Source of the DNA: Sphingobacteriales bacterium
GTDB lineage: Bacteria; Bacteroidota; Bacteroidia; Chitinophagales; Chitinophagaceae
Reading direction: 5' to 3'
Length of the DNA stretch: 25,042 nucleotides
NCBI GenBank assembly: GCA_024640385.1
Contig: JAHEFC010000005.1
Span: 1-25,042, forward strand
A model generated the notes under the pieces. It did not search any database and had not been told where the DNA came from. It saw only the letters and a list, made by a program, of their open reading frames with translations. This document shows positions 1 to 23,634 of this stretch, in pieces. Made by a program: the position numbers and the translations under genes. The first letter of the stretch is position 1, and each line of letters begins with the position of its first letter.

Positions 1-1066
1 GCAGTCATTGGTTTCCAAAGTTGTTCCAGAGGCAACCAAAGAAGAACAATTGAATGCCTTGCGAAAGGGCATGAAATATGCGGCATCATTGGGTATCACC
101 AGCATGCAGAATGCGAATGGAGATCTGGAAGAATATGATCTCTACCAAACGCTGTACAACAACAAAGAAATGACCATGCGATTTACCATGGCCTTCAGCG
201 TGGGCGCCAAAACCACGGACAAAGAGATCGCCGATTTTATCAAAATAAAAAATGAAAAAGGAAACACCGACTGGTTAAAAGGCCATGCCATCAAATTCAT
301 GGTGGATGGTGTGATCGAATCTCATACCGCTGTGATGGTGGATCCGTATAGTGATATACCGGTGAACGACAGGATGCAGGCGAAGCACTGGAACATCCCT
401 GTAGACAGGTACAGGCAACTGGTACTGCAACTGGATAAAGAAGGATTCCAATTGTATACCCATGCTATCGGAGACCTGGCAGTGAGAGAAGCGCTAAATG
501 CATACGCAGAGACGAGGAGCACAACGCGGAGACACAGAATAGAACATATCGAACAAGTAAGTGCAGCCGATATTCCAAGATTTGCTCAACTCGGTGTGCT
601 CCCTTCCATGCAGCCAATACACGCTGATCCCGGAACGGTAGATGTTTGGGGCAAAGCAGTGGGCGAAGAAAGATTGCCCCGTTCATTTGCATGGCAATCA
701 TTGCTGAAAAGCGGCGCCAAATTGGTATATGGGGCCGACTGGCCCGCCTGCATTTCTGTGAACCCCATGCGTGGTTTACATAGCGCGGTAAACAGGAGAA
801 CCACGGATGGCCAGCCTCCAAACGGTTGGGTACCCGAGCAAAGAGTAAGCATTGCTGATGCATTAAAAGCATATACAGTGAACAGTGCCTATGCATCGTT
901 TGATGAAAAACAAAAAGGCAAACTGGTACCGGGCTTCCTGGCAGACCTGGTGGTTCTCTCACAGGACCTGTTCACCATCCCCACAATGGACATCTATAAA
1001 ACTGAAGTGATGATGACCATGGTTGACGGGAAGGAAGTGTTCAAACACGAAAAATTCCAGGAATAG
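1..1066 (+). CDS. YtcJ-like amidohydrolase, 3' part (5' end outside window)
   Basis: This is the C-terminal 354 residues of a metal-dependent amidohydrolase of the YtcJ / amidohydrolase-3 type. The reading frame is open to the left edge (codons from base 2), so the start is missing; the TTG at base 8 is not a credible start. Visible family motifs are a metal-ligand HAIGD (about base 470), HRIEH (about base 535), GADWP with its likely catalytic Asp (about base 735), and a C-terminal GKLVPGFLADLVVL strand typical of the composite beta-domain. Such enzymes hydrolyse amide or imide bonds, but substrates differ widely and cannot be read here. The segment between HAIGD and HRIEH carries a short dispersed repeat in frame (503-538). 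I am confident of the family, not of the substrate or of the length of the missing N-terminus. Confidence 0.88.
   Translation, partial: QSLVSKVVPEATKEEQLNALRKGMKYAASLGITSMQNANGDLEEYDLYQTLYNNKEMTMRFTMAFSVGAKTTDKEIADFIKIKNEKGNTDWLKGHAIKFMVDGVIESHTAVMVDPYSDIPVNDRMQAKHWNIPVDRYRQLVLQLDKEGFQLYTHAIGDLAVREALNAYAETRSTTRRHRIEHIEQVSAADIPRFAQLGVLPSMQPIHADPGTVDVWGKAVGEERLPRSFAWQSLLKSGAKLVYGADWPACISVNPMRGLHSAVNRRTTDGQPPNGWVPEQRVSIADALKAYTVNSAYASFDEKQKGKLVPGFLADLVVLSQDLFTIPTMDIYKTEVMMTMVDGKEVFKHEKFQE
503..538. repeat. Dispersed repeat family A, copy 1 (inside amidohydrolase)
   Basis: The plus strand reads GCAGAGACGAGGAGC then GCGGAGACACAGA; the opposite strand therefore carries CTCTGCGT-type sequence. It aligns closely with the coding strand of copy 3 in the rhamnosidase gene (GCAGAGACAC...GAGACGCAGAG). 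It is in frame and encodes AETRSTTRRHR just before the conserved HRIEH motif, in what I believe is a length-variable linker of the family. Confidence 0.65.
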
Positions 1067-1080
1067 ATCATCCCTGGGTC

Positions 1081-1114
1081 ATATAACCTCAAAGCATTGA
1101 TTTATGGGTTATAT
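1081..1114. terminator. Possible hairpin downstream of amidohydrolase
   Basis: Perfect 8-bp inverted repeat ATATAACC (1081-1088) / GGTTATAT (1107-1114) with an 18-nt loop, 15 bp after the amidohydrolase stop codon. The stem is AT-rich and no T-tract follows directly, so a terminator role is only suggestive. The rest of the 238-bp gap up to 1305 is AT-rich and holds a candidate promoter. Confidence 0.25.
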
Positions 1115-1157
1115 CATATAAATACAAGCCAAAAAACTTCAATTTGGGGTTGTATCG

Positions 1158-1190
1158 TTTTTGAATAGAAAAACTGAGATTTTACCTTAA
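1158..1190 (+). promoter_or_regulatory. Candidate Bacteroidota-type promoter for methyltransferase
   Basis: TTTTTG at 1158-1163 could serve as the -33 element. A 19-bp spacer separates its TTG from TACCTTAA at 1183-1190, which matches 6 of 8 positions of the Bacteroidota -7 consensus TAnnTTTG. Spacing is right but the -7 box is imperfect. A start near 1197 would leave a leader of roughly 100 nt before the ATG at 1305. Confidence 0.28.
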
Positions 1191-1304
1191 AAAGAGGCGA
1201 AATTGGCTGAAAATTGGCCAAAAGAGGTCAAATAACCCTGATTTTTCACAGAAAATAGAAATTCTGCTTTTGAACATCCGCGCCAGATATTTGTTTTCCT
1301 AATC

Positions 1305-2003
1305 ATGAAAGCCAGCTTCCTCTCTCTCTGTCTCAGCGTCCTCCTCTGCGTCTCCGCGTCCACCCAGGAACGCTACGAACTTAGAAGCGGCGACCCCAAC
1401 GGTATCAACAAATGGTATTTGGGCCGGCAGATCGCCTATGTGATGAGCCACCAGGGGATCGATTGGCTGGAACGCCCGGAAAGGGAAAAAGAAGAAAACA
1501 GTTCGCAATTGCTGAGGAACATGAAGATCAAACCAGGAATGATCGTTGCGGATATCGGAGCTGGAAGCGGTTACTACACAGCAAGGATCTCCAAAAAGGT
1601 AGGCAATGGAACAGTATACGCTGTGGATATAGAACCCGAGATGATCAACTACCTGGATCAACGCATAGCCCGGGAAAAACTCACCAATGTAAAAACCATT
1701 CTCAGTACCGAGCAGAAAGTCAACCTTCCTGCTAACAGCATCGACCTCATGTTGCTGGTTGATGTCTATCACGAATTCTCGTTCCCCTATGAAATGGGGC
1801 GCTCGATGCTGGAAGCCCTGAAACCCGGTGGCCTTCTGTACCTGGTTGAATTTCGTGCGGAAGACAATAACGTGCCCATCAAAGCAGTCCACAAGATGAG
1901 TGAGAAACAGGCCGTGAAAGAATTAAAAGCAGCAGGGTTTCAATTTGAACGTAATATCTCCAATCTCCCCTGGCAGCATTGCATGGTGTTTAAGAAATCT
2001 TAA
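1305..2003 (+). CDS. Class I SAM-dependent methyltransferase with N-terminal signal peptide
   Basis: A 232-aa protein. Residues 83-89 read DIGAGSG, the SAM-binding glycine motif I of Rossmann-fold methyltransferases, followed by an acidic end of strand beta-2 (VDIEPEM) and a motif-IV-like LLVDVYHEF. Upstream of the fold is the stretch WLERPEREKEE, which I recall as characteristic of a subfamily of apparently exported methyltransferases. Residues 1 to about 20 (MKASFLSLCLSVLLCVSAS) look like a signal peptide, odd for an enzyme that needs cytosolic SAM. That peptide is encoded almost entirely by a family A dispersed repeat. The substrate is unknown. The gene runs head-on into eutC and the two stop codons overlap in TTAA. 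Confidence 0.85.
   Translation: MKASFLSLCLSVLLCVSASTQERYELRSGDPNGINKWYLGRQIAYVMSHQGIDWLERPEREKEENSSQLLRNMKIKPGMIVADIGAGSGYYTARISKKVGNGTVYAVDIEPEMINYLDQRIAREKLTNVKTILSTEQKVNLPANSIDLMLLVDVYHEFSFPYEMGRSMLEALKPGGLLYLVEFRAEDNNVPIKAVHKMSEKQAVKELKAAGFQFERNISNLPWQHCMVFKKS
1319..1362. repeat. Dispersed repeat family A, copy 2 (encodes the signal peptide)
   Basis: CT-rich run containing CTCAGCGTC, CTCTGCGTC and CTCCGCGTC in near-tandem. It covers codons 5-20 of the methyltransferase gene and encodes the hydrophobic stretch SLCLSVLLCVSAS. Orientation is CTCTGCGT-sense, opposite to copies 1 and 3 relative to their coding strands. Confidence 0.65.
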
Positions 2004-2764
2004 TGCTCAGGCCCCAACAACCCGCTGTTGTCTTTCAACATCACACCGCTGAGTTTCAACCTCAGCGACTCATTTACCAGGTACATGATCTTATCTGCCG
2101 CAGCATCATAACTGAGCCCGTTGGCATTGATGTTGGAAATGCAGTTTCTTTTCTCATCCGTATTACCGATAGCAGGCCCATAAGTCAGATAGGCCCCCAA
2201 ACTATCCGGCGAGCTCAATCCCGGCCTCTCGCCGATCAGGATCAAGGAAAGTTTCGCTCCCAATACAGACCCGGTTTCATCACTGATCGCCACACGTCCC
2301 TGCTCAATTATGCATACCGGGGAAAGTGACCAACCCGCATCTTTCATACGCGGGATCAGTATATTCAATAATGGTAAGGCATGGTTATTCACTGCCGTGG
2401 CAGATAAACCATCGGCCACACTAATGCAAACATCATAAGAACCGCTCAGGGTTCTCAATTCTTCCAGGGATTCTTCGTTCAACCTTCTTCCCAGATCCGG
2501 CCGCTGCAAATACTGCTGTCTATCCACCGCCCGTGAATGCAAAACCAAACAGGGATGCAATCGCTCAATCTGCAACCTGCAACCCGCCACCTGCAACCTG
2601 TCAAAAACTGCGTCTCTTGCAAACGCATGCGCAAGAGTAAAATGCAGGCTCTCAGAGGTGGGTACCGAAACACCTGCCCTGCCCAAAGCAATCCTTGCAT
2701 TGGTATACTTGCGCAAGCCAATCCAGGGGTCCTGATCGTTCCGATGTTGCAACGCTTCACTCAT
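2000..2764 (-). CDS. eutC: Ethanolamine ammonia-lyase light chain EutC
   Basis: A 254-aa small subunit of adenosylcobalamin-dependent ethanolamine ammonia-lyase, which with EutB splits ethanolamine into acetaldehyde and ammonia. Recognisable family stretches are DPWIGLRKYTNARIALGRAG near the N-terminus, YLQRPDLGRRL in the middle, LILIGERPGL and NCISNIN near the C-terminus. It is shorter than the E. coli protein (about 295 aa), mainly at the N-terminus, as I recall for EutC outside microcompartment operons. The start codon overlaps the eutB stop (ATGA), which indicates translational coupling. Residues around 55-65 (RLQVAGCRLQ) are encoded by a family B dispersed repeat between the conserved RDAV and LHSRA segments. 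No EutA reactivase gene is seen. Confidence 0.94.
   Translation of the reverse strand: MSEALQHRNDQDPWIGLRKYTNARIALGRAGVSVPTSESLHFTLAHAFARDAVFDRLQVAGCRLQIERLHPCLVLHSRAVDRQQYLQRPDLGRRLNEESLEELRTLSGSYDVCISVADGLSATAVNNHALPLLNILIPRMKDAGWSLSPVCIIEQGRVAISDETGSVLGAKLSLILIGERPGLSSPDSLGAYLTYGPAIGNTDEKRNCISNINANGLSYDAAADKIMYLVNESLRLKLSGVMLKDNSGLLGPEH
2567..2602. repeat. Dispersed repeat family B inside eutC
   Basis: Plus strand shows TGCAACCTGCAACCCGCC followed by ACCTGCAACCTG, a degenerate tandem of an ACCTGCA unit. It lies in frame within eutC, where the minus strand encodes RLQVAGCRLQ. In EutC homologues as I remember them this interval is a poorly conserved helix-loop, so the repeat occupies a tolerant site. 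Confidence 0.55.
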
Positions 2765-4134
2765 GACGAATATGATAATAAAGGATGATCTGCTCTTGCA
2801 GGTAACTGGTTCCCTTCCTCATCAAAAATTCCCTGCTGCACCAGCCAGGCTTCAAACTCCGGCGCAGGCCTCAGTCCCAATGCCTTCCGCACAAACAAGG
2901 CATCGTGAAACGAAGTGCTTTGATAATTCAGCATGATATCATCTGCCCCGGGCACACCCATGATATAATTGCATCCGGAAACACCCATCAGCAGCAACAA
3001 ATTATCCATATCGTTCTGATCCGTTTCAGCGTGATTGGTATAACAGATATCCATACCCATAGGAAGTCCCAACAGCTTGCCACAGAAATGATCTTCCAAC
3101 GCAGCACGCGTGATCTGTTTCCCATCGAAGAGATACTCAGGGCCAATAAATCCCACTACCGAATTCACCAGGTGCGGATCGAAATGCCTGGCCACCGCAT
3201 AAGCCCTGGCCTCGCAGGTTTGCTGGTCAAGGCCCTCATGCGCATTGGCGGAAAGCGCAGAACCCTGGCCTGTTTCGAAATACATGATATTATTCCCAAT
3301 TGTGCCGCGCTTCAACGAGAGCCCGGCTTCATATGCTTCTTTCAACAAGGAAAGATTCACACCAAAACTGGCATTGGTTTTCTCCGTGCCACCAATGGAC
3401 TGGAACACAAGATCAACTGGCGCATGTTGCTCTATCAGTTGAATCGTGGTGGTAACATGACTCAACACACATGACTGCGTGGGGATCCCGAACCTGCTGA
3501 TCAGTGAATTCAGCATATGCAGCAACGCATATACTTTGTCCGGATGATCCGTTGCCGGATTGATCCCGATCACCGCATCACCCGAACCATACATGAGCCC
3601 GTCAATGATCGATGCCGCTATACCTTGGAGGTCGTCTGTGGGATGATTGGGCTGCAGCCGTGCAGAAAATCTTCCTTTTAAACCGATCGTATCCCTGAAC
3701 CTGGTCACCACCCTGCATTTCTGCGCCACCAATACCAGGTCCTGGTTGCGCATGATCTTAGAAACAGCAGCCACCATTTCGGGTGTTAATCCTTTTTTTA
3801 TTTGCAAGATGGATCGTTCCGTTGCATCATCACTCAATAACCAATCCCGGAACTGACCCACAGTGAATGAACTGATTCTTTCAAAAGCATTTGCATCATG
3901 GCTGTCGATGATCAACCGTGTCACTTCATCAGTTTCATACGGCACCAACACTTCATTTAAAAATGTTCTCAGCGGAACGTCAGCCAAACATAGTTGCGCT
4001 GCCACACGCTCCTGGTAAGAATCCGCAGCCAGTTCCGCCAATACATCCCCGCTGCGGTAAGGACTGGCCTTAGCCATCAGCAACCTGAGACTGGGGAATG
4101 AATAAGTATGATGATGAACCGTGTACTTGTACAT
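2761..4134 (-). CDS. eutB: Ethanolamine ammonia-lyase heavy chain EutB
   Basis: A 457-aa large, catalytic subunit (TIM barrel) of AdoCbl-dependent ethanolamine ammonia-lyase. Near-identical family blocks are visible: FQSIGGTEKTNASFGVNL, EDHFCGKLLGLPMGMDICYT, TNHAETDQNDMDNLL and DIMLNYQSTSFHDALF, and the length is normal for EutB. The frame stays open upstream to 4326, but the extra 64 residues overlap the permease gene and look unlike EutB. I therefore take the ATG at 4134, giving MYKYTVHHHTYSF, 28 bp after the permease stop. It is the second gene of a three-gene operon (permease, eutB, eutC). No shell-protein, EutA or aldehyde dehydrogenase genes are adjacent. Confidence 0.96.
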   Translation of the reverse strand: MYKYTVHHHTYSFPSLRLLMAKASPYRSGDVLAELAADSYQERVAAQLCLADVPLRTFLNEVLVPYETDEVTRLIIDSHDANAFERISSFTVGQFRDWLLSDDATERSILQIKKGLTPEMVAAVSKIMRNQDLVLVAQKCRVVTRFRDTIGLKGRFSARLQPNHPTDDLQGIAASIIDGLMYGSGDAVIGINPATDHPDKVYALLHMLNSLISRFGIPTQSCVLSHVTTTIQLIEQHAPVDLVFQSIGGTEKTNASFGVNLSLLKEAYEAGLSLKRGTIGNNIMYFETGQGSALSANAHEGLDQQTCEARAYAVARHFDPHLVNSVVGFIGPEYLFDGKQITRAALEDHFCGKLLGLPMGMDICYTNHAETDQNDMDNLLLLMGVSGCNYIMGVPGADDIMLNYQSTSFHDALFVRKALGLRPAPEFEAWLVQQGIFDEEGNQLPARADHPLLSYSS

Positions 4135-4162
4135 CTTTCTAAAGTTCTGCAATTTCAGGGAG

Positions 4163-5491
4163 TTAGTCTTCGATCTGCAGCAAATTATCATCCAGGCGGA
4201 TCTTGTTACGTCCCGCCAATACAAATAGCGCAAGGCCCAGGGCAAGTCCTGCAAAAAATACCAGGGTGAGGAAGGCATTATAATAAGCGATGGCAGCAAG
4301 ACAAACCAGCGATAACACCAGCGCAATGATGGGAAACCAGGGGAAGAAGGGCGTCCTGAATCCGGCGATGGACCTGATCTCTTTATGCATCTTCAGCAGG
4401 CTGAGCATACTGATGGCATACATTACCACAGCACCCAGGGCAGAAATAATGATCACTTTGTCGGTAGTTCCCGTAGCCAGGCAGATCAGGCCCACAATAC
4501 CACCGGCGAGCAAAGCCCAATGTGGTGTACGGTATTTCAGGTTCACTTCACTCAATATGGAAGGCAGAAAACTGCTGCGCGACAGGGCAAAGATCTGTCG
4601 TGAGTAACCGATGATCAGCCCATGGAAAGATGCGATCAGCCCGAATAACCCGATGAATGCAAATGCCTTGGTAAGAACATTTTCTTTACCGATGGCCTGG
4701 CTGATGGCAGCAGGCAATGGATAATCGATCTTGACCAATTCCTGCCAATTTCCCACACCACCTGCGAGAATGATCACGGCCAGTGTGATCAATACCAGTG
4801 TAGACATACCCAATAAATATCCTTTGGGAATATTCTTCTGCGGATCGATCACTTCTTCCGCCACCATGGCTACACCTTCTATGCCCAGGTAGAACCAGAT
4901 GGCAAATGGCAGGGCGGCGAATATGCCGTTGAACCCGAAAGATCCATTATTGGCCAGAAACTTCCGGGAATCAAAATGCGGCAGTGTGAGTATAATGAAA
5001 ATCGCCAGCCCGATCAGCGCCAGTATCGTCACCACCATATTAAAAAGTGCCGATTCTTTTATACCCAGCAGGTTGATCAATGTGAAAATGAAATAACATC
5101 CAACAGCGGTATACATCACTGGAATATCTGCATTCAGAAAATGTACATAACTGCCAAGGGCAAACGCTATGGCCGGGGGTGCAAAAATGAATTCTATCAG
5201 GGTGGCATAGCCTGCTATCATGCCACCAATGGGTCCGAATGCTTTATACGCATAGGCGAATGGCCCGCCTGCATTGGGGATGGCAGAAGTCAGTTCAGTA
5301 AAGCTGAAAATGAAGGTGACATAGAGCACTGTAACAATCAGCGTGGAGATCAGCAGCCCCACCGTGCCCGCCACGCCCCATCCATAATTCCATCCGAAAT
5401 ATTCTCCGCTTATGACCAGCCCAACCGCCAGTGCCCAGAGATGTATGGGCCTAAGAACTTTGCGGAGAGATGCTGAGGGATGATGGCTCAT
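4163..5491 (-). CDS. eat: Ethanolamine permease, APC superfamily
   Basis: A 442-aa inner-membrane transporter with about 12 hydrophobic segments. The N-terminus (IHLWALAVGLVISGEYFGWN) and the following IPNAGGPFAYAYKAFGPIGG match the amino acid/polyamine/organocation family, and GEYFGWNYGW is characteristic of the ethanolamine permease branch as I know it. It stands first in the operon, 28 bp before eutB, so import of ethanolamine is the natural role. The specificity assignment rests on family recognition plus context. There is only a 56-bp gap to the hydrolase gene upstream on the same strand, with no visible cobalamin riboswitch. Confidence 0.9.
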   Translation of the reverse strand: MSHHPSASLRKVLRPIHLWALAVGLVISGEYFGWNYGWGVAGTVGLLISTLIVTVLYVTFIFSFTELTSAIPNAGGPFAYAYKAFGPIGGMIAGYATLIEFIFAPPAIAFALGSYVHFLNADIPVMYTAVGCYFIFTLINLLGIKESALFNMVVTILALIGLAIFIILTLPHFDSRKFLANNGSFGFNGIFAALPFAIWFYLGIEGVAMVAEEVIDPQKNIPKGYLLGMSTLVLITLAVIILAGGVGNWQELVKIDYPLPAAISQAIGKENVLTKAFAFIGLFGLIASFHGLIIGYSRQIFALSRSSFLPSILSEVNLKYRTPHWALLAGGIVGLICLATGTTDKVIIISALGAVVMYAISMLSLLKMHKEIRSIAGFRTPFFPWFPIIALVLSLVCLAAIAYYNAFLTLVFFAGLALGLALFVLAGRNKIRLDDNLLQIED

Positions 5492-5547
5492 TTCTGAAAA
5501 TACCGATAAAAATTGATCAGTAGATAAAGAACTATCTCTTTCAAAAT

Positions 5548-6846
5548 CTACCTATTTCTCAAATGAAGGGCCTTTACTATGGTAGCCAGTGATGCCTCAC
5601 TGTCTCTATTCCAATAACTGGTATGACCACCGGGGAAAAACCATATTGATTTTCTCTTTACAAAAATATCTCTAACTCCCGGACCAAATAGCCTTTGCAT
5701 CGGCCCTCCAATATAATCAGAAGAAAAATAGATATTGGTCCACCTGGTTACTGCAAACAAAGCTGCATGATGCAAAATTTTAACTGTTCTCTTGCCGTCT
5801 TTTATGTCGTAAGGATCAGAATTGTAATGAATACTCTTTTCCCTGTCATCAGCAACCGGGGGACAAACCGGAAACTCCCTTTGCTCTTTGAGTACATCAA
5901 ATGATACATTATTGACGATCAGGTAATCTGCATTGCATAAAGGCGATCCAATGGTGATAAAATCTGATATCCGCCATTTATTGCCTATGTTTTTTTGCTG
6001 CAACCAGCAATGATTCTGAAGTTCCTGGAACTCATCTATAGATGAGATTTCCTTTTTACCATTACTGTATTTTTCAATTTCAGATATTGCGGTTTGGTCA
6101 ACAACCGGCACATGTTCATAGCTGTCATCATACTCGGTCCATAAAATCCGCAAAAGATCATATGCCACTACACTCCCTAAACTGTGCCCAACAATAATTA
6201 TGCGATCGTACTTATCTTTCCCGACTCGCTCGTGTATTTTTTTGAGAAATGCCAATCCCTGCTGGCGAATCATGCTTCTTTCCCCAACATTAGCAGGTGA
6301 AGGTGTAAAATAGCGCCCCGCATCTCCTACAGAATTCAGAAAGGAATTCTTTATAAACAACGCAACGATTGAGAATAAAGAAGGCAATACTATTATGGCA
6401 GATAGAATAGATTTGATCTTATCATACCCCAAAATCCACAGCAGTAGTATGACGATCAGCATAACAGCGATAAAGAATATCCAGATTGTATTCCATACTA
6501 TCTTTACCCTGTCTGGTATCCTTTTTTTAGGGAACAGAAGCTTAAAAAGCCAGGATGTGATATGCCCAAACTTGTTCTCCCGCATATTATGCGCCCAGTA
6601 GAATTCGTAAAAATCGGTGATCGGACGATTACGGGATGCACTAAGACTGAGTCGCCTGGTTTCATAGATATCAGAAATACCATCAGGCTTGCTTCGGATC
6701 ACAGTATTCTTTTCACTTTCATCAGTTTTCAAAAGATACTGCCTGATCCCTTCCACAAATGAACGCAGAGTATCCATGGGTCGCTGTTCACCCATACCGT
6801 GAATGATAACTACTGCCTGTCTTTTATTATCATGCTTCGAAACCAA
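5548..6846 (-). CDS. Membrane-anchored alpha/beta hydrolase (lipase-like)
   Basis: A protein of about 432 aa. The sequence opens with AVVIIHGMGEQRPMDTLRSF, the oxyanion-strand HGxG region of alpha/beta hydrolases. RIIIVGHSLGSVVAYDLL follows near residues 215-232 (nucleophile Ser in GHSLG), and a late GGHTSYW offers a catalytic His. Two hydrophobic helices at about residues 117-140 and 145-165 interrupt the fold and should anchor it in the membrane. The frame is open to an ATG at 7074, but that overlaps the upstream gene by 188 bp. I choose the TTG at 6846, 40 bp after that gene's stop, because it precedes the first conserved strand; the start is uncertain. Substrate unknown; lipid or ester hydrolysis is inferred. 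Base composition is AT-richer than the flanking operons. Confidence 0.75.
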   Translation of the reverse strand: MVSKHDNKRQAVVIIHGMGEQRPMDTLRSFVEGIRQYLLKTDESEKNTVIRSKPDGISDIYETRRLSLSASRNRPITDFYEFYWAHNMRENKFGHITSWLFKLLFPKKRIPDRVKIVWNTIWIFFIAVMLIVILLLWILGYDKIKSILSAIIVLPSLFSIVALFIKNSFLNSVGDAGRYFTPSPANVGERSMIRQQGLAFLKKIHERVGKDKYDRIIIVGHSLGSVVAYDLLRILWTEYDDSYEHVPVVDQTAISEIEKYSNGKKEISSIDEFQELQNHCWLQQKNIGNKWRISDFITIGSPLCNADYLIVNNVSFDVLKEQREFPVCPPVADDREKSIHYNSDPYDIKDGKRTVKILHHAALFAVTRWTNIYFSSDYIGGPMQRLFGPGVRDIFVKRKSIWFFPGGHTSYWNRDSEASLATIVKALHLRNR

Positions 6847-6886
6847 AACTATTGTTTTCGGAATTTCAATAAAATAACACTTTGTA

Positions 6887-7384
6887 CTACCAGTCTGTTT
6901 TGAATAGGGTGCCGATCCAGGGGAAATTGAAAAGACTAAAGCTCCAGGGCAACTTTTCAAATAAGATATCGAACGCACGTTTCTCAATCCGCAAGTTGAT
7001 TTCATTGTCATCAATAACAAGTAACCCCCATCGTTGAAGAAAAAGAGTCTGCAAAGACTCAATGGAAGATCCATTCAGCACTTTCCAATGGCTGATTACT
7101 GACAATAACAATTCCCCGGATATAAATTTAATATTTTCAGGTATTGGTTGATCATCTACAATTTCCTTCCGGATGTCAAAACCACAGATAAGCTTGGGGA
7201 AAAGATAAATACCGTTCTCTACATGATCATCATTTGTTGCCAGGTAGTTTAATGATCTTGTCGCCATAACTGCTGCCTTTTCTGAGGTGAATAGACCATT
7301 TTCTATTAACCCGCATGCGTCAAGAAATCGCTCTAAAAATGGGAATAATAAAGTAAGACCGGCATTTTTAATTTCGAGTTCCAT
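6887..7384 (-). CDS. Orphan contractile-injection-system tape-measure-like protein
   Basis: A 165-aa protein. The N-terminus IKNAGLTLLFPFLERFLDAC, then YLFPKLICGFDI, then SHWKVLNGSSIESLQTLFLQ and a C-terminal LPWSFSLFNFPWIGTLFKTDW-like ending (conserved LPW, PW and terminal W) match, from memory, the CIS_TMP family of contractile injection systems. There it usually forms the end of a much larger tape-measure-like protein. Here the domain stands alone with no sheath, tube, baseplate or AAA+ gene in view. I chose the ATG at 7384. A GTG at 7447 would add 21 residues but sits inside a hairpin. It is followed closely by the membrane hydrolase, probably as a two-gene unit. Family is fairly confident; function here is unknown. 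Confidence 0.7.
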   Translation of the reverse strand: MELEIKNAGLTLLFPFLERFLDACGLIENGLFTSEKAAVMATRSLNYLATNDDHVENGIYLFPKLICGFDIRKEIVDDQPIPENIKFISGELLLSVISHWKVLNGSSIESLQTLFLQRWGLLVIDDNEINLRIEKRAFDILFEKLPWSFSLFNFPWIGTLFKTDW

Positions 7385-7434
7385 ATCAATGGAATAATGA
7401 AGTTTGTAGGGCCGGTTAAGGGAAATCTGATATG

Positions 7435-7471
7435 CACTACCCGGCACATTAGTGTTAAATACCGGGTAGTG
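7435..7471. terminator. 10-bp stem hairpin after SnoaL-like gene
   Basis: Perfect inverted repeat CACTACCCGG (7435-7444) / CCGGGTAGTG (7462-7471) with a 17-nt loop, 20 bp past the stop of the minus-strand gene ending at 7491. There is no strong T-tract on either side. It could end transcription or protect the upstream mRNA, and it separates that gene from the tape-measure-like gene. Confidence 0.4.
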
Positions 7472-7490
7472 ATCCTAACAAAAAGTGTTG

Positions 7491-7877
7491 CTATGCATTT
7501 ATCGTAACCGTATCAACAGCCTGGTAAAACCTGGCTAACTTCCCGTCTTTAACAGTCCAGAGATGGGCAGCCTGGGCCTTGAATCTCTTGCCTGTAAGTT
7601 TATTCACCCCTTCATAATAGCCTTCCATACAAACCCTGTCACCGGAGCCGAATATGTCAGTTACGGTAACCGTGAATCCGTCAAAATATTCACCGAGTTG
7701 CATAAAAACTTTCGCCACCACTGCTTCGGGGCCTATATACTTGCCGGAATCTTTTACAAATACCATACCGGGGCATTCGTTCCATTCAATGGCGGGATCC
7801 ATAGCACCCAGTACCGCGGGAACATTACCCGTTGCAAAATCTGCATAGATTTGTTTAACCATTTCAACATTTGTCAT
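7491..7877 (-). CDS. SnoaL-like / NTF2-like fold protein
   Basis: A 128-aa cytosolic protein with the cone-shaped NTF2-like fold pattern. An N-terminal helix MVKQIYADFATGNVPAVLGAM is followed by IEWNECPG, a strand-rich middle with EGYYEGVNKLTGKRFKAQAAH, and a final LWTVKDGKLARFYQAVDT. This resembles SnoaL / ketosteroid-isomerase-like proteins often annotated as nuclear transport factor 2 family. Members include isomerases, hydrolases and binding proteins, so no reaction can be assigned. It is a single gene, divergent from the DUF1810 gene with 129 bp between them, in which I see no convincing promoter match. Confidence 0.85.
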   Translation of the reverse strand: MTNVEMVKQIYADFATGNVPAVLGAMDPAIEWNECPGMVFVKDSGKYIGPEAVVAKVFMQLGEYFDGFTVTVTDIFGSGDRVCMEGYYEGVNKLTGKRFKAQAAHLWTVKDGKLARFYQAVDTVTINA

Positions 7878-8006
7878 GTCATTTTCATTTAACGTTTAAG
7901 GAACTATTTACAACATAAGATATAGATATTGATCGGATCTACAAACATTAGGCCCTGTTCATTCAATCATCGGCTAACTGGCATAACTTTAAAAAAATTG
8001 TAACCC

Positions 8007-8429: not shown

Positions 8430-8447
8430 AAAAAGCTCCGGCAAACC

Positions 8448-15310: not shown

Positions 15311-15790
15311 ATGCAGATCACCCAAACAAATGATGAAGCCGTATTTGAGCAATGTGCAAAAATGATGGTTAAAAGCGAGCCCTGGATCACACTGGGCATT
15401 GACCTTGCCCGCTGTCGCTCTGCATTTGATGGTGAATGCAAAGAAGTATATGTTTTGAAAGAAGACGAGGCCCTCGCAGGCTTTGTGATCTTGCAGGTAT
15501 GCGGTTCTTTTAAAGGCTACATCCAAACCCTATGTATAGATGAATCCTGGCGGGGCCGTGGGTTAGGCACTAAACTGCTGGAATTTTGCGAGAAAAGAAT
15601 TCTGAAGATCTCTCCCAACATTTTTATCTGCGTCTCCTCCTTCAATAGCAATGCAATAAAACTCTATGAGCGCTTTGGCTTCAAGCTCGTAGGCGAACTT
15701 CAGGATTTTGTAAAGACGGGCTATTCCGAATTATTATTAAGGAAAACCTTCGGTCCCCTGGCAGGCTATCAGCCCAATGAAAAGATCTGA
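15311..15790 (+). CDS. GNAT family N-acetyltransferase
   Basis: A 159-aa cytosolic acetyltransferase. The acetyl-CoA pyrophosphate-binding motif A is clear: IQTLCIDESWRGRGLGTKLL (R-G-x-G-L-G type). The C-terminal motif B, SFNSNAIKLYERFGFKLVGE, is also typical, resembling RimI-like members. The acceptor is unknown. It starts immediately after the symporter stop and ends abutting the stop codon of the opposite-strand HIRAN gene (TGA then TCA, no spacer). Confidence 0.9.
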   Translation: MQITQTNDEAVFEQCAKMMVKSEPWITLGIDLARCRSAFDGECKEVYVLKEDEALAGFVILQVCGSFKGYIQTLCIDESWRGRGLGTKLLEFCEKRILKISPNIFICVSSFNSNAIKLYERFGFKLVGELQDFVKTGYSELLLRKTFGPLAGYQPNEKI

Positions 15791-16639
15791 TCAGAACTTC
15801 AGCTCCAAGAACTGCCTGCCCAGTTTATCCGCCACATTCACCATCCCACTGATCCGGTCGATATAAGATTCCATTTTTCTCACTGAGAGTACAATATAGC
15901 CTTCTTCATCAAACATCTGGTCCGCACTGTATAGTTCGGACTCGATGCTCTTAAGCTGCTCCGCCAATGATGACGGAAGCCGCTTCTTATTAACGATCAG
16001 AAAATCTACTTGCTTTCCATAATCAATTGCCGGATCAAATGATGTTTCGATCAGTTTTTTCACTTTTTCCTGCTTTGTGTTCTTTGTCAGCCATTGATAC
16101 GCGTTCACAGATTCCAGTTCATCATCATCCGAATTTTTGATCCGCATGATGGTTTGGTCTGCTCTTTTCAGTGTGCGGTAATGCGGAGTTTCCAGTTCAG
16201 TTAAGTAAGCGGCAGAAGATGGCAGTTGCTCAGATATAGGGATCTCCTTCAACACATAAATCGCAATGTTCACATTCTCCCAGGCCGCAGCTTCCGGTTT
16301 GAGGAAGATGATCTCGGCAATGAGTTCCGGTACTCCGATGTCCAACAGCTTGCTGAGCATCTCATTATCTTCCGCCGGCACGAAGCCGATCTTCTTATTG
16401 TTCCAGTGCAGGGCAATGGCACAGGGATCGTATTCATTCTCCGGCTCCCTAACCAATTCAAGCAGATCGCCCTCCTTCATCTGATCGATCAGTGCAGGAC
16501 CTTCATAATGCCTGAATCCCCGTACAAAACTCTGCAGCAGGTAGAATTTTTTAAACTGTTTGGCCTCAACAAATTTTCCGGAAAGAAAACTCATTCCGCC
16601 TATGGCGATCAGACCTTTAATGAAGTCTATGCGTTTCAT
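15791..16639 (-). CDS. HIRAN-domain protein with N-terminal export-like segment
   Basis: A 282-aa protein. Residues of about 30-125 match the HIRAN domain: FVRGFRHYEGP, then LVREPENEYDPCAIALHWNN and KKIGFVPAEDNEMLSKLLD. In helicases such as HLTF this fold binds 3' DNA ends. Here it is not fused to a nuclease or helicase. The N-terminus MKRIDFIKGLIAIGGMSFLSG resembles a signal or weak Tat-like leader, which fits poorly with a DNA-binding role. The remaining C-terminal 150 residues are helical and unrecognised. The gene is monocistronic between convergent and divergent neighbours. Confidence 0.8.
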   Translation of the reverse strand: MKRIDFIKGLIAIGGMSFLSGKFVEAKQFKKFYLLQSFVRGFRHYEGPALIDQMKEGDLLELVREPENEYDPCAIALHWNNKKIGFVPAEDNEMLSKLLDIGVPELIAEIIFLKPEAAAWENVNIAIYVLKEIPISEQLPSSAAYLTELETPHYRTLKRADQTIMRIKNSDDDELESVNAYQWLTKNTKQEKVKKLIETSFDPAIDYGKQVDFLIVNKKRLPSSLAEQLKSIESELYSADQMFDEEGYIVLSVRKMESYIDRISGMVNVADKLGRQFLELKF

Positions 16640-16702
16640 GCAGTTGTTATGGGTGTTTTCATTTAGAGAAAAAGATACTATTTTTCGAGTCTAACCAGCC
16701 AT

Positions 16703-17182
16703 ATGAAATATTTATCCATCCTTCTTTTGCTGACTATCACTGTTTATTCCCACGCACAAAACAAAAAAGGTAAGCCCATGCCTGAGATCAGTCTTCCCGG
16801 GCCCATGGGTAACGAGATCTCTGTTTCTTCATTGAAAGGCAAAGTAGTATTGGTAGACTTTTGGGCCAGCTGGTGCCGGCCCTGCCGCATGAACAATTCC
16901 AAACTGGTAAACGTATATGAAAAATTCAAAGACAAAGGATTTGAGATCTATGCCCTATCCATAGATACTGATAAAGCAGCCTGGCTCAATGCCATTACCA
17001 CCGATAAGATGTTCTGGACCAATGTGGTCGATACCCGCGGCAGCAAAACAACCATCCTGCCTGCATTCAATGTAGAAGCCATTCCTTCCAACCTCCTGAT
17101 CGATAAAAAAGGAATTATCCGCGGTTACAATGTAGACCCTGAAGATATGGGTAAGATGATCAACAAACTGTTGGCCGAATAG
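16703..17182 (+). CDS. TlpA-like periplasmic thioredoxin-family protein
   Basis: A 159-aa protein with a signal peptide (MKYLSILLLLTITVYSHAQ) and a single thioredoxin-fold domain. The active site is WCRPC (Cys58, Cys61), preceded by VVLVDFWASW and followed by the cis-Pro loop AIPSN. LKGKVVLVDFWA is typical of the AhpC/TSA-Redoxin-like ResA/TlpA branch used by Bacteroidota for periplasmic disulfide reduction. Partners are not evident locally. Only 3 bp separate its stop from the stop of the convergent rhamnosidase gene. Confidence 0.93.
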   Translation: MKYLSILLLLTITVYSHAQNKKGKPMPEISLPGPMGNEISVSSLKGKVVLVDFWASWCRPCRMNNSKLVNVYEKFKDKGFEIYALSIDTDKAAWLNAITTDKMFWTNVVDTRGSKTTILPAFNVEAIPSNLLIDKKGIIRGYNVDPEDMGKMINKLLAE

Positions 17183-17185
17183 TAG

Positions 17186-20011
17186 CTACTTGTTCCCGAC
17201 CACAAAACTATATTTCCCGGAACCCAGTTCCAGCATATTTTCACCAGTAGCTGTCTTGGATGAAGCAGCAACTTTGCCATTCACCTGCAAAGTACCCCCG
17301 GGGACTATGACTGTTGCTGAAGTATTCACCGGGATCTCCACATCAAGCACAAACGAACTGTTTGATTTCTTCCAATCCACACTGATCAACCCATTGATGG
17401 AATTATAGGAGCCTTTGGCCCAGTTGATGGATCCGCCAGGCTGTGGATGAATGATGAAATGTTTATAGGCTGGGGTATTAGGATCCGGATTGATACCCAG
17501 GATCACCCGATACATCCATTCGCCCACTGAGCCTAAAGAGTAATGACAAAACGAGTTCATGCCCGCATCCTGGAATCCTCTTCCTTTTACATATCCATCC
17601 CATCGCTCCCAAATAGTGGTAGCGCCCTGGTTGATGGAATAGAGCCAGGATGGCATCCGCTCAGATTCCAGTAATCGATAAGCAATATCATTTCTCCCGC
17701 GCTTTGTCAGCTCTTTCATCATCATCAGTGTAGTAATAAAACCAGTTGAGATGCGGTAATCATATTCCTTTATACACTCAATCATATGTTCAAATGCCAG
17801 GGCTTCTTTTTCTTTGGGCAACAATTCGAAATTGAGTGCAAGTGCATAGGCGGATTGAGTATTTCCTTTGATCCTGGCACTGTCATTTACATATGTTGCA
17901 TTGAACTTGGCCCGTATCTGTTCAAATAAGGTTCTATACTCCTCTGCGTCTCGGTGTCGACTCAGTGTCTCTGCGATCTTCGCAAACAACCTGGCTGAGT
18001 TCGCATAGAATGCTGTTGCAAAAACTTCTTTGGGAACTTCTCCTCTTTCTTTGGAATATCCCTCTGCGATCACCGTATTGGCATTCAACCAGTCACCGTA
18101 CTGATTGCCCACATCTTTCAGCCAGAGAAAGTCGGGATTCTGGCTCCTGATATTTTCGATATACCGTTTCATGGCATCATAGTGCTGACGCAGCAATTCC
18201 TTATCGCCATAATTCTCGTACATGCGCCAGGGAATGATCACACCCGCATCTGCCCACGCTGGCGCATTGGAAAAACGGATATCAGGCTTGTTGGTATGCG
18301 GAGCAATATCAGGAAAAGTACCGCGCTGCGATTGCGCATCCCTGATATCCTTCACCCATTTGCTGTAAAAAGCTGCCATGTCCATATTGAACATGGAATT
18401 CTGACAAAATACCTGTGCATCGCCCATCCAGCCCATACGCTCATCGCGCTGCGGACAATCAGTAGGCACTGAGGTCATATTATTGCGCTGGGTCCAGAGA
18501 ATATTCTGCCATAACTGGTTCAGCTTCTGATTTGAACAACTGAATGAACCTGTTTCTTCCGGATCGGAACTCAATGCGCAGGCACGGATCATCTCTATAT
18601 CTTTCAGATTCTTCAGCCCGCTGATCTCGATATACCTGAACCCGTGATAAGTGAAATAGGGTTCGAACAGATCATTGTTGCCAGACAGTATATATTCATC
18701 TTCCTGCACGGCAGCCGCGAGATTTGCTGTATAGAGGGAACCGTCATCGTCCAGCATCTCGCCATGCCTGATCCTGATCTTATCGCCCTTATTGCCTTTG
18801 ATCTTTAACTGCGTCCAACCCGTCAGGTTCTGGCCAAAGTCAATGATATATTTATCGCCAAGAGGCTTGATGCTCTGTGGCTGCAGGTATTTATAAATGC
18901 GGATGGGTTCGTTTTTTTGCGCTTCAAGGTTCTTCTTCACCGAGGCGTCCACATAGGCTTTGGCCCAGTTGCCATCATTAAATTCAACTTTGCGCCAATT
19001 TGCAGGGATATTCCGCGCATCGATTGTCTGGCCCAGGAAATTGTCCGCCATAATGATGAAGCCCTGGGTATTGATCTTCCAGGTTTCGTCGGTAACTACG
19101 ATCTCCTTTGTTCCATCTTCATATATCATCTCCAGTTGCGCGATCAGTCTCCTGTCGTCACCATATGCACCGCGCCGGGGATAGTCGTTATGCCATTTGG
19201 TAGGACCGATCATGCTCAGGTACCAACCATCACCCAAAACAGATGAAAGCACATTGGCACCTGGCTTTAGCGATTTCGTAACATCGTAGGCCTGGTACTG
19301 CACGCGCTTCTCATAATCGGTCCACTCCGGCGTCAGCACCTGGTTGCCCACTTTCTCTCCGTTCAGCCCCATCTCGTAATAGCCCAATGCAGATACATAT
19401 AATATGGCTTCTTTGAGTTTAGGACGAACAGAAAACGTCTTCCTTAACATGGGTGATGAAGGCCCTGGGGGTTTTTCGTTTTTAAACGCTTTATCATTTG
19501 GATCAAAGCTGGCCAGGTGAGCTTTGTAGGCTTTTTGTATGAGGTCTTGCTGATCGCCTATCCATTTGGCCCTCCAGTCTGATGGAGCCAGTAATCCCAT
19601 GGTCCAGAACGCCGGTTCGCTCCATGGCGTTGCAGCATCTTTATCATTCCATATCCTGATGGTCCAAAAACATTTTTGTCCGCTCACAAGTTTTTTTCCC
19701 TGGTATACGATCTGGGCATTGGCATCAGATTTCACCTTACTGCTATTCCAGAGATCTGCTTTGGCTTCGGTGAGTTTATCGGGAGAAGTGGCCACCAGCA
19801 CCTGGTAGGCTGATTGTTTTTGGGAAAAAACATTTTTCGCTATTGCTTCTGATTTCCAACTTAACCTTGGGCTGAGCACATCAATGCCGATGGGATTGAC
19901 CAGGTATTCGGTTCTGAGGCTGGTGACCCTGAGATTCGCAGGCGGGTTTGGATGGCAAAGGGAAACAAGAGGCAGTAAAACAAATATGACAAATATTGAT
20001 CTGAAATTCAT
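17186..20011 (-). CDS. GH78 alpha-L-rhamnosidase
   Basis: A 941-aa secreted glycosidase. Signal peptide MNFRSIFVIFVLLPLVSLCH is followed by the Ig-like N-terminal domain (PANLRVTSLRTEYLVNPIGI), the jelly-roll rhamnosidase N domain (YVSALGYYEMGLNGEKVGNQ), a second beta-domain, the six-hairpin catalytic barrel with TDCPQRDERMGWMGDAQ (catalytic acidic residues near Asp523/Glu524), and a C-terminal beta-sandwich. The frame is open to 20050 but I take the ATG at 20011, which gives a clean signal peptide. It removes terminal alpha-L-rhamnose from glycans or glycosides. Residues at about 680-690 (AETLSRHRDAEE) come from a family A repeat. Confidence 0.95.
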   Translation of the reverse strand: MNFRSIFVIFVLLPLVSLCHPNPPANLRVTSLRTEYLVNPIGIDVLSPRLSWKSEAIAKNVFSQKQSAYQVLVATSPDKLTEAKADLWNSSKVKSDANAQIVYQGKKLVSGQKCFWTIRIWNDKDAATPWSEPAFWTMGLLAPSDWRAKWIGDQQDLIQKAYKAHLASFDPNDKAFKNEKPPGPSSPMLRKTFSVRPKLKEAILYVSALGYYEMGLNGEKVGNQVLTPEWTDYEKRVQYQAYDVTKSLKPGANVLSSVLGDGWYLSMIGPTKWHNDYPRRGAYGDDRRLIAQLEMIYEDGTKEIVVTDETWKINTQGFIIMADNFLGQTIDARNIPANWRKVEFNDGNWAKAYVDASVKKNLEAQKNEPIRIYKYLQPQSIKPLGDKYIIDFGQNLTGWTQLKIKGNKGDKIRIRHGEMLDDDGSLYTANLAAAVQEDEYILSGNNDLFEPYFTYHGFRYIEISGLKNLKDIEMIRACALSSDPEETGSFSCSNQKLNQLWQNILWTQRNNMTSVPTDCPQRDERMGWMGDAQVFCQNSMFNMDMAAFYSKWVKDIRDAQSQRGTFPDIAPHTNKPDIRFSNAPAWADAGVIIPWRMYENYGDKELLRQHYDAMKRYIENIRSQNPDFLWLKDVGNQYGDWLNANTVIAEGYSKERGEVPKEVFATAFYANSARLFAKIAETLSRHRDAEEYRTLFEQIRAKFNATYVNDSARIKGNTQSAYALALNFELLPKEKEALAFEHMIECIKEYDYRISTGFITTLMMMKELTKRGRNDIAYRLLESERMPSWLYSINQGATTIWERWDGYVKGRGFQDAGMNSFCHYSLGSVGEWMYRVILGINPDPNTPAYKHFIIHPQPGGSINWAKGSYNSINGLISVDWKKSNSSFVLDVEIPVNTSATVIVPGGTLQVNGKVAASSKTATGENMLELGSGKYSFVVGNK
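17939..17976. repeat. Dispersed repeat family A, copy 3 (inside rhamnosidase)
   Basis: Plus strand reads CTCCTCTGCGTCTCGGTGTC and then CTCAGTGTCTCTGCG. The coding (minus) strand encodes AETLSRHRDAEE in frame, between helices of the catalytic barrel domain. The opening AET-x-S is shared with the unrelated amidohydrolase (AETRS), because both carry the same repeat in the same frame and orientation. Confidence 0.65.
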
Positions 20012-20079
20012 AAATGCAATTAAGTATATGAGGCCGGCTATTGACCTCATGCAACTTATTAAAAATTATGTTTGGGTTT

Positions 20080-20742
20080 CTATTTTAATGCCGGAGTTGC
20101 CTCTGTTTCGGCTCCCTTATTCTGCATGATCACAAAAAGGATCAATGCACTCAATACCGCTGCAAAAAAGCACCATACGGAAATCACATAACCCAGGAAG
20201 AAAAAATAGGAAATAAGCAAGGCCACCAGGAAGGCTCCGCCCAACAATTTCATGAACCGAAGGCTTGAGATGAAAAAAGGGATCAGGGTGACAAAAAAAT
20301 AAATGCTGCGCCGCAATTCCATATTGGGGAAAAACAGATAGTATTTGATATGTCCGCCTTCAATAACAGCCGAAACTTCGTAAACAAAAAGACAATACAG
20401 AAGGTAGATGGAAAATGCTCCTCCCAAATACATGAAATAGGATAGCATTTTCTTCCTGGTTGTATCGGGTTCCATCAACCATAAGGCAAACGGCACCCAT
20501 AGCGGCCAGATCACCTGGGCAAATAACAGGAAAAAATAAATAGACGAATCATGCCAGGGTGCTAAGTCCCGGTTCAGAAAGGTCAGCCATAATATCCCTT
20601 CGGCGAATTGCTGCACACCAAACAGGATGGGCACAGTGGCAAAGGGCAGCATCCCTGGCCTTTCTGTTTTTCTAATAGCGCCGATACCGGTACCGATCAG
20701 CATTGCACTTGCACCAAAACTCGCACCAGCAGAAAAACACAT
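20080..20742 (-). CDS. DUF6629-type integral membrane protein
   Basis: A 220-aa protein with about seven hydrophobic segments. It begins MCFSAGASFGASAMLIGTGI, the N-terminal signature I associate with the DUF6629 family (MCFSA-x-ASF), and continues with FGVQQFAEGILWL in the second segment. Function is not known. It lies 68 bp upstream of the rhamnosidase gene on the same strand and may be co-transcribed with it, without obvious functional link. A large palindrome stands 30 bp upstream of its start codon. Confidence 0.82.
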   Translation of the reverse strand: MCFSAGASFGASAMLIGTGIGAIRKTERPGMLPFATVPILFGVQQFAEGILWLTFLNRDLAPWHDSSIYFFLLFAQVIWPLWVPFALWLMEPDTTRKKMLSYFMYLGGAFSIYLLYCLFVYEVSAVIEGGHIKYYLFFPNMELRRSIYFFVTLIPFFISSLRFMKLLGGAFLVALLISYFFFLGYVISVWCFFAAVLSALILFVIMQNKGAETEATPALK

Positions 20743-20771
20743 AGGCTAGCTTTTAAAATGAATCGGCATCC

Positions 20772-20839
20772 CCCCCTACCTCCAAGGTCCCTACCTCCAA
20801 GGTCGGTACCTTGGAGGTAGGGACCTTGGAGGTAGGGGG
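20772..20839. repeat. Perfect palindrome, 32-bp arms, 4-nt loop (repeat family C)
   Basis: Left arm 20772-20803 and right arm 20808-20839 are exact reverse complements around the loop CGGT. Each arm consists of two tandem copies of the 15-mer CCCTACCTCCAAGGT, so the structure has four unit copies, two in each direction. The core ACCTCCAAGGT is itself a mini-palindrome (ACCT-CCA-AGGT). A degenerate relative, AGGTC-6 nt-GACCT, follows at 20844-20859. It lies between two divergent genes, so it is not an ordinary terminator. Confidence 0.93.
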
Positions 20840-20953
20840 AGGGAGGTCAAGGTAGACCTAAATCATTTCTGATCTCCATTTAATTCAGGCCTCCAATAAG
20901 AGGGCGGGCTCATCATTTCAACCGCCAGAATAAGCAGTTCATTCAGCAACCCA

Positions 20954-20984
20954 TTGCGTCCATATGATGGATTTTAAACATTTG
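20954..20984 (+). promoter_or_regulatory. Candidate promoter for OmpA-family gene
   Basis: TTG at 20954-20956, then a 20-bp spacer, then AACATTTG at 20977-20984, which matches 7 of 8 positions of the Bacteroidota -7 consensus TAnnTTTG. A start just after 20990 would leave a very short leader before the ATG at 21002. This also argues against the in-frame GTG at 20984 as the translation start. Confidence 0.35.
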
Positions 20985-21001
20985 TGGCACAACATCAGAT
21001 T

Positions 21002-22285
21002 ATGAAAAGCAGAATGGTCCTCTTACTGATTGCCGCCATGCCTATACTCGCCCAGGCCCAGATAGGCAGAAGCATAATAAACAAAGCGAAAGACAAGATC
21101 AACCAACGGATCGATAAAAAAGTGGATGCCACTATGGATAAGTCACTGGATGCCCTGGAAGGCAAGAACTCCTCAGCGTCTTCGGAATCCCCCTCCGAGG
21201 CATCTTCGTCTCCCTCTGCGTCCTCCGTGTCCCCCTCCGCGTCTCCTTACATCAAGTTTGACTTCATCCCCGGAGAGCAGATCATCTATTTCAATGATCT
21301 GGCCGCGGAGACCCCAGGCGAATTGCCTATCGGCTGGAACAGCAATGGCAATGGCGCCGTAGTTACCATCAATGGACTGCCCGGAAACTGGGTGCAGTTT
21401 TATAAAGACGCCGTCTATCTCACTGATAACAAGGAGAACTTCTCCGAAAACTTCACTGTGGAATTCGACCTGCTGATGCGTCGCAGCAACCCTAAAGAGG
21501 CATTCCCGCAATTCGCTTTCGGTGTGCTGGCATCAGGTGAAGAAGCACCAGGCTCCAATGTATTGCTCAAGGCCTATAAGAAATTCTTTTGCACCGAGCT
21601 CAAGATCCAGCCATCAGATTACAACGGATCCCATATGCACCTGGAAACTTTTGAAAAATATGAAGGCTACCTGAAAACCGATGTCAAGAAATATGGCGTA
21701 CTGGAGAACTTCTTCAACAAGCCCGTCCACATATCCATGCAGGTGCAGAAAGAAAGATTACGGGTATGGATAAACGAAAATAAATTGTACGACCTGCCTA
21801 AAGCCATACCGGCAGGTACCATCCTCAACCAGCTCTTCTTTTTTGTAAAAGGCAACGGCGGTAACGACGATGAGGTAGGATATGATATCAGTAACATCAA
21901 GATCGCCAAAGGTTTGCCCGATAGCAGGCATAAACTGATCGATGAAGGGAAATTCACTACTACCGGGATCCTCTTCGATGTGAACTCTGCCAACATCAAA
22001 CCCGAAAGCAGTGGCGTATTGAAAGATATCGCCGATGTATTGGCAAAGCACCCTGATATCAAAGTGAAGATCATCGGTCATACTGATGCCGACGGATCGG
22101 ATCAGGCCAATAACGAGCTCTCCCGTAAACGAGCAGCAGCAGTCAAAACCGCCCTCGTAAAGGATTTCTCCATCGCAGAAGACAGGATGGAAACCGATGG
22201 CAAAGGTGAATCAGTGCCTGTAGCCGATAACAAAACCAAAGAAGGAAAGGCTCAGAACCGCCGTGTAGAATTCATTAAACAATAA
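21002..22285 (+). CDS. OmpA-family envelope protein with central beta-sandwich-like domain
   Basis: A 427-aa protein with signal peptide MKSRMVLLLIAAMPILAQAQ. After a short charged helical stretch (about 20-55) comes a Ser/Pro/Ala-rich linker (SSASSESPSEASSSPSASS). A beta-rich region of about 210 residues with FSENFTVEFDLLMRRSNPKE suggests a LamG/concanavalin-like fold. The C-terminal OmpA domain contains GILFDVNSANIKPESSGVL, KVKIIGHTDADGSDQANNEL and the peptidoglycan-contact region LSRKRAAAVKTALV. It probably ties the outer membrane to peptidoglycan. I choose the ATG at 21002 over a GTG 18 bp earlier. It is followed after 24 bp by a second secreted-protein gene. Confidence 0.92.
   Translation: MKSRMVLLLIAAMPILAQAQIGRSIINKAKDKINQRIDKKVDATMDKSLDALEGKNSSASSESPSEASSSPSASSVSPSASPYIKFDFIPGEQIIYFNDLAAETPGELPIGWNSNGNGAVVTINGLPGNWVQFYKDAVYLTDNKENFSENFTVEFDLLMRRSNPKEAFPQFAFGVLASGEEAPGSNVLLKAYKKFFCTELKIQPSDYNGSHMHLETFEKYEGYLKTDVKKYGVLENFFNKPVHISMQVQKERLRVWINENKLYDLPKAIPAGTILNQLFFFVKGNGGNDDEVGYDISNIKIAKGLPDSRHKLIDEGKFTTTGILFDVNSANIKPESSGVLKDIADVLAKHPDIKVKIIGHTDADGSDQANNELSRKRAAAVKTALVKDFSIAEDRMETDGKGESVPVADNKTKEGKAQNRRVEFIKQ
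21205..21246. repeat. Dispersed repeat family A, copy 4 (Ser-rich linker of OmpA protein)
   Basis: TCGTCTCCCTCTGCGTCC is followed by CTCCGTGTC and CTCCGCGTCTCC. It encodes the SSSPSASSVSPSASP linker. Degenerate additional units (CTCAGCGTC, CTCCGAGGC) extend upstream to about 21172. Orientation matches copy 2. This copy could also be ordinary low-complexity linker coding, so the assignment is weaker than for the other three. Confidence 0.5.
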
Positions 22286-23629: not shown

Positions 23630-23634
23630 AATCA

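Follow-up and report, generated by a model that had tools for sequence, protein, structure and literature searches.

The DNA analysed here, hereafter the window, is a stretch of 25,042 nt of contig JAHEFC010000005.1 from the draft genome GCA_024640385.1 (4.08 Mb, 585 contigs), and it carries copies of a short dispersed repeat inside four unrelated protein-coding genes. Copy 1 (503..539) consists of two units of one arm, with the CTCTGCG sense on the minus strand and GCAGAG on the gene strand, and codes for YAETRSTTRRHRIE in an Amidohydro_3 family protein (2..1066, plus strand; PF07969, E 1.3e-62) whose gene is cut at its 5' end by the window edge. Copy 2 (1319..1366, plus strand), made of two units and their flanks, encodes the hydrophobic core of the signal-peptide-like N-terminus MKASFLSLCLSVLLCVSASTQ of a class I methyltransferase (1305..2003, plus strand; PF13847, E 3e-16). 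Copy 3 (17939..17976, plus strand), again two units of one arm with GCAGAG on the gene strand, codes for IAETLSRHRDAEEY in a GH78 alpha-L-rhamnosidase family gene (17186..20050, minus strand; PF17389, E 1.3e-122). The fourth copy, probable and degenerate, spans about 21172..21246 (plus strand) as four 21-bp (seven-codon) repeats that encode a Ser/Pro linker in an OmpA-domain protein (20984..22285, plus strand; PF00691, E 8.4e-24), the start of which is uncertain, the gene caller having chosen 21002. A sequence-only reading of this DNA had placed one repeat family in frame at these four sites, and our analysis confirms the places and frames of all four, family membership being certain for copies 1–3 and probable for copy 4. 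Its view that orientation sets the type of peptide was also borne out, the GCAGAG strand giving AETRSTTRRHRIEH and AETLSRHRDAEEY and the CTCTGCG strand LSLCLSVLLCVSAS and SASSESPSEASSSPSASSVSPSAS, and its view that the host segments are tolerant is supported.

To assess membership of the family, we trained a weight matrix on 153 non-coding units and scored pairs of units at a distance of 18–22 bp. Copies 1, 2 and 3 scored 38.8, 36.0 and 41.1, and ten coding copies ranged from 30.6 to 52.2. Loci of relatives, 632,680 bases with some overlap and read on both strands, served as the null, and their highest score was -5.0. Near-matches to CTCTGCGTCTCCGCG (15-mers with up to 3 mismatches) occur seven times in the window, compared with 0.22 expected from shuffles, and six of the seven fall in copies 1–3, the remaining one lying elsewhere at 15626-15640. 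Copies 1–3 certainly belong to the repeat family. Copy 4 has a two-unit score of 6.2 and is matched by the array consensus in a BLAST search at 21208-21245 (E 9.5e-7).

The family has a 15-bp core, CTCYGYGTCTCYGYG, within a repeating unit of 20 bp that comprises CTCYGYGTCTCYGYGT followed by a YCCC-like spacer, and 71 of 88 neighbouring unit pairs lie 20 bp apart. Core variants are almost exclusively C/T exchanges at four YG positions. As one strand of the consensus unit lacks A and the other therefore lacks T, all six frames are free of stop codons. The pattern CTCYGYGTCYCYGYG has 70+68 = 138 exact matches in the genome compared with 2+0 for its reversed control, a genome-wide excess of the kind by which the sequence-only reading had proposed to judge its single dispersed DNA family. 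With one mismatch allowed, the counts are 94+94 and 31+33, the reversed pattern being a poor control here as it probably matches shifted units. Among 59 relatives scanned for the same pattern, 36 of them from the same genus, three have one or two matches each, and in a sample of the phylum matches were found in 15 of 147 other genomes, with a maximum of 21. The repeat family is expanded in the source genome.

Beyond the phylum, the two-unit form with its spacer had no match in viral_contigs or in genome_contigs (84,980 species, from which near relatives of the window are perhaps excluded), and the array consensus had none in phage and plasmid collections. The bare 15-mer is present in at least 118 stretches of genome_contigs and a 23-mer in at least 120 of viral_contigs, the latter possibly including stray cellular DNA; since a 15-mer is expected about 480 times by chance (257 billion bases, both strands), the count of the bare core is by itself uninformative. 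The core CTCTGCGTCTCTGCG and related CTCYGYG forms were found, among the matches listed, in Cyanobacteria, Planctomycetes, Acidobacteria, Pseudomonadota, Bacteroidota, one archaeon and viral contigs. Their flanks are partly common across phyla, with CTCYGYG-like sequence before the core and GGT or TGA-like sequence after it, often continuing as GGTTAAA- or GTGAAA-like sequence, and it is these shared flanks, not the count, that suggest relatedness. The core and its CTCYGYG relatives are perhaps an undescribed cross-phylum repeat. In three loci of other Bacteroidota (L547, L549, L565), single core words lie a few bases 5' of an ATG that is a possible start codon. An Rfam 15 search of the window, L344, L345, L043 and L343 returned 20 matches at E ≤0.01, of which 19 are microRNA models and none reaches the gathering score, and the repeat 15-mers are absent from the literature as far as open-licence papers show, the papers listed for shorter words being unrelated by title.

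Genomic placement was evaluated in 51 stretches (286 kb), mostly picked for holding copies, using codon-based gene calls and a cluster finder; eight of these, picked as Y1_Tnp or arbitrary contigs, hold no copies. The resulting 54 clusters comprise 33 intergenic ones, 11 that lie across a gene end and 10 within called genes, although single diverged copies may be missed because some clusters were drawn from a BLAST list. Looser merging gives 51 clusters, 42 of them non-coding, the 42 including L041 and a merged cluster at L035, which are both signal-peptide copies. Inverted arms are present in 27 of these 42 (25 with the GCAGAG arm first and two doubly so), the other 15 are single-armed, and the reverse arm order alone was found in none of them. 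For 28 of the 42, the closest gene end lies within 25 bp and is a 3' end (null 31%, binomial 3e-6), and for seven it is a 5' end (null 33%). Three complete arrays fold at -45 to -84 kcal/mol (z -7.0 to -9.3), and two one-arm stretches show no folding beyond chance (z -1.5 and 0.4). The main form of the family is an intergenic run of 20-bp units joined head to tail. It frequently has two arms inverted relative to each other, lies near gene 3' ends and is hairpin-capable. Such arrays probably act as 3' hairpins, either as terminators or as mRNA ends.

The sequence-only reading had taken the gene-internal copies for the whole family, which does not hold, as most of the clusters found lie outside genes. 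Coding copies are a minor form of one to three units of one arm, read in frame. Thirteen are known, each with one arm, including copy 4, a fourth histidine kinase (L497) and L041, where the open reading frame begins 5' of the called start. Within each of the ten copies inside called genes, and in L041 as well, the units run in a single orientation, and one copy (L045 3918-3952) sits at a C-terminus.

Where a repeat-free relative can be aligned, coding copies stand where it has native sequence, and the length is the same or nearly so. The GH78 protein aligns without gaps at the repeat to its orthologue in G011 (73% identical over 328 aa; length difference 0), its own codons reading ATC GCA GAG ACA CTG AGT CGA CAC CGA GAC GCA GAG GAG TAT and those of G011 ATT GCT GCT GTG TTG GAA AAT GAA AAA GAT GCA AAA GCG TAT. 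Of 21 GH78 orthologues that cover the region, 20 are gapless and one is short by a single residue. The amidohydrolase has AETRSTTRRHRIEH where homologue P0021 (89%) has ENAAKLNGARDRRPRIEH, its own loop being 4 aa shorter, and P0002 (89%) carries the same kind of longer loop as P0021. Among the 60 aligned homologues of this protein, P0001 (90%) shares the repeat form of the window, whereas P0006, P0007, P0009 and P0016 (82-86%) have, judged by eye and from protein, other repeat-like loops of the RDAEQRGDT type at the same place; P0003 is ambiguous and the others look native. Anthranilate synthase component I (TrpE, L335) has TLTLRQREEHRDAE against SIEFADKPNSRNS in G020 (76% identical), a gain of 1 aa. 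As the sequence-only reading had anticipated, repeat-free homologues encode different peptides at the GH78 and amidohydrolase sites, and of the two outcomes that it left to such a comparison the changes resemble replacement (0 and -4 aa) and not insertion.

Histidine-kinase paralogues stand in tandem at G000:C504 (L328, L499, L500), one of which has at least 31 scored matches in the genome. We read a loop of this protein in 21 distinct paralogues of the source genome, fewer than the search returned: the loop is 40 residues long in the four with the repeat, 39 in 16 others and 43 in one. In a tree inferred without the loop, the four repeat-bearers do not form one clade, and two of them pair with repeat-free paralogues (support 0.90 and 0.94). 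This pattern could come from one gain followed by loss, or from conversion between paralogues. In the repeat-free L500, the words GCAGAG and GGAGACGCAGAGGA flank 30 nt, at the place where L328 has 33 nt of repeat. These flanking words fit the need of a homology-bounded patch. Across the family, the repeat has entered genes more than once.

On the pyrimidine-rich strand, the repeat encodes N-termini that, by inspection, are signal-peptide-like: LCLSVLLCVSAS in the methyltransferase, LCLCTLLCVSAFS in an Amidohydro_2 protein (L041) and LLCVSVSLSASLRS in a GH65-like protein (L035). Immediately beyond its N-terminus, homologue P0241 matches the sequence of L041, but that N-terminus is unrelated and one residue shorter (+1 aa for L041). 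The methyltransferase homologues are likewise similar downstream and diverse at their N-termini, some of which are repeat-like, and the signal peptide of the window protein is within 0-2 aa of the length of those in P0124 and P0129. Among 39 other methyltransferase homologues inspected as protein (P0122-P0160, of 120), a simple repeat-type motif fits 12 but not the other 27. Three pairs of amidohydrolase and methyltransferase homologues (P0001/P0129, P0002/P0122 and P0015/P0136) appear to be neighbouring genes, and together with the window they cover each of the four possible states, with a repeat-type form at both genes, at either one or at neither, suggesting independent turnover of the two sites. 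In another methyltransferase homologue, P0133, TQRRREGTQRHREGTQRRRE is followed by LCLCVSLCVSVFSS at the N-terminus, which looks like an entire inverted array lying across the gene start.

The sequence-only reading had proposed that the repeat spreads by insertion. With patches of about 35–43 nt, plain insertion predicts a gain of about +11 to +14 aa, compared with the differences of 0, -4, +1, +1 and +1 aa that we found. We hypothesise instead, and consider it somewhat probable, that array arms overwrite coding DNA where the two have short words in common, and that selection then sorts the products. The donor would be an array arm, the DNA of which is written onto a coding target chosen by short words common to both, such as GCAGAG and GGAGACGCAGAGGA, by way of ectopic gene conversion or of a short-patch replacement bounded by microhomology. 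Since the unit is open in six frames, many such patches would be readable, and selection would retain those that keep the frame in tolerant segments. Purine-strand patches would supply charged loop or helix peptides, and pyrimidine-strand patches peptides rich in Leu, Cys, Val, Ser and Ala that are potential secretion signals. More tentatively, the family as a whole may spread into genes by overwriting, one strand of its six-frame-readable word repeatedly rebuilding loops and the other strand signal peptides.

Several observations weigh against overwriting. No patch has been seen in the act, the donor arm is presumed, the comparison of DNA at GH78 is with an orthologue of 73% protein identity, and the homologues at 89-93% were compared as protein. 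Copy 4 is probably a degenerate member of the family, and its weakness counts here too, with a best single unit of 11.8 that falls below the one-unit null maximum of 12.9. L049, one of the 13 coding copies, has a single unit that fails the two-unit test, with 35 null pairs scoring as high, and its coding status is uncertain as the true start may lie 3' of the repeat. The TrpE loop varies in length among relatives regardless of the repeat, and the seed word GGAGACGCAGAG, present in kinases that lack the repeat, may itself stem from an earlier patch. At the methyltransferase, P0124 (MKASFLSLSLCILLFVSAYAQ), P0132 and P0140 resemble the repeat type without matching its motif and are maybe intermediates; the intermediate look of P0124 and P0132 makes a stepwise change of the signal peptide possible.

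A mobile repeat might alternatively enter in frame and adjacent native residues be deleted until the length of the loop is restored. Insertion is the known entry route of Rickettsia palindromic elements, as PMC10969869 describes, the amidohydrolase homologues P0006, P0007, P0009 and P0016, with their repeat-like loops, are longer than the native form, and P0133 seems to read both arms at its N-terminus. We nevertheless regard this route as unlikely, given that GH78 keeps its exact length where 20 of 21 orthologues align without gaps, that the four kinases each differ by exactly one codon, and that no coding copy found in the source genome exceeds its native form by anything near the length of a patch. 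Another alternative is a drive by point mutation resembling that of DNA uptake sequences, in which preference for a recognised word turns coding sites into it through successive single-base changes, without donated DNA. Length neutrality, the single orientation and the tolerant peptides would all be expected from such a drive, uptake sequences occur within reading frames (PMC2346458), and the kinase paralogues are graded from no word through GDAEEI to two full units. However, coding copies hold two units at the spacing of the arrays, which a drive on single words would not need, six of the seven near-matches in the window fall in recognised copies, so that half-built sites are not spread, and an uptake signal would be expected in greater number than the roughly 138 exact matches, which are clustered in arrays; we find this explanation distinctly improbable. 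Chance, or convergence of codon usage in signal peptides rich in Leu, Cys, Val and Ser and in charged helices, has very little to recommend it overall and is practically excluded for copies 1–3: such residues are indeed acceptable in the host segments, and copy 4, a Ser/Pro linker of low complexity, scores weakly, but the ten coding copies lie far above the null maximum and keep the array spacing, and the GH78 orthologue in G011 uses unrelated codons.

Repeats that lie in frame within bacterial genes are as a rule put down to insertions that the protein tolerates. If overwriting by array arms is true, length-neutral replacement would offer non-coding DNA a further route into proteins, one that disturbs folds less and that searches for insertions would hardly notice. 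New signal peptides would then have a specific origin that can be tested, the pyrimidine strand serving as a ready-made cassette for them that is gained and lost among sister species. Because the core word is found across many phyla and part of its flanks recurs there, such a process might operate on a wider scale.

The window holds other repeats as well. A second palindromic family, with the unit CCTACCTCCAAGGTC and a period of 15 bp, lies at 20772-20839 and has 58+46 matches in the genome with up to one mismatch (control 2). Copies of this family at C82:1702-1733 and 2401-2462 stand on either side of a Y1_Tnp gene (C82:1930-2229), which gives them the look of a REP/RAYT pair. An inverted pair of 45-nt sequences (23634-23678 and 24344-24388), 87% complementary and 665 nt apart with a small open reading frame between them, is perhaps a third repeat family.

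Compared with known systems, the family described here shares features with several. Rickettsia palindromic elements, according to PMC10969869, are about 150 bp long, are inserted in frame and add peptide, and like this family they are dispersed palindromic repeats found between genes and in frame within unrelated genes. Unlike them, this family is built from a 20-bp array word, its coding copies hold one arm only and not the whole palindrome, and its patches of 35–43 nt replace native sequence so that the host protein is hardly lengthened. REP, BIME and REPIN sequences, as described in PMC3116915, similarly consist of short units as inverted pairs that form intergenic hairpins in many copies. 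This family differs from REP/REPIN with RAYT in lying also within coding sequence. RAYT was rejected as its mobiliser, with no cluster on either of the contigs (C31, C82) that carry the two Y1_Tnp matches of the genome, although a further RAYT gene may be missed in a draft of 585 contigs.

DNA uptake sequences can form inverted pairs that serve as terminators, a likeness to the arrays described here. PMC2346458 gives them as hundreds to thousands of single words that lie in reading frames with a bias in orientation. This family shares short words in reading frames with such a bias, but its 70+68 exact matches in 4.08 Mb are mostly in arrays. The small dispersed repeats (SDR) of cyanobacteria are very short, lack a gene of their own and resemble this family by description only. 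They are named in PMC3116915. In short-patch double illegitimate recombination (SPDIR), copies from elsewhere, bounded by microhomology, replace short segments with little change in length; such events are known as rare and unselected and can involve any sequence, and in the present case a single repeat family would donate again and again. Candidate bounds of the SPDIR type are visible at the kinase loop in comparison with L500, and at GH78 the orthologue is only 73% identical. Of the processes compared, SPDIR is the closest, and the family itself we regard as a novel form of dispersed palindromic repeat.

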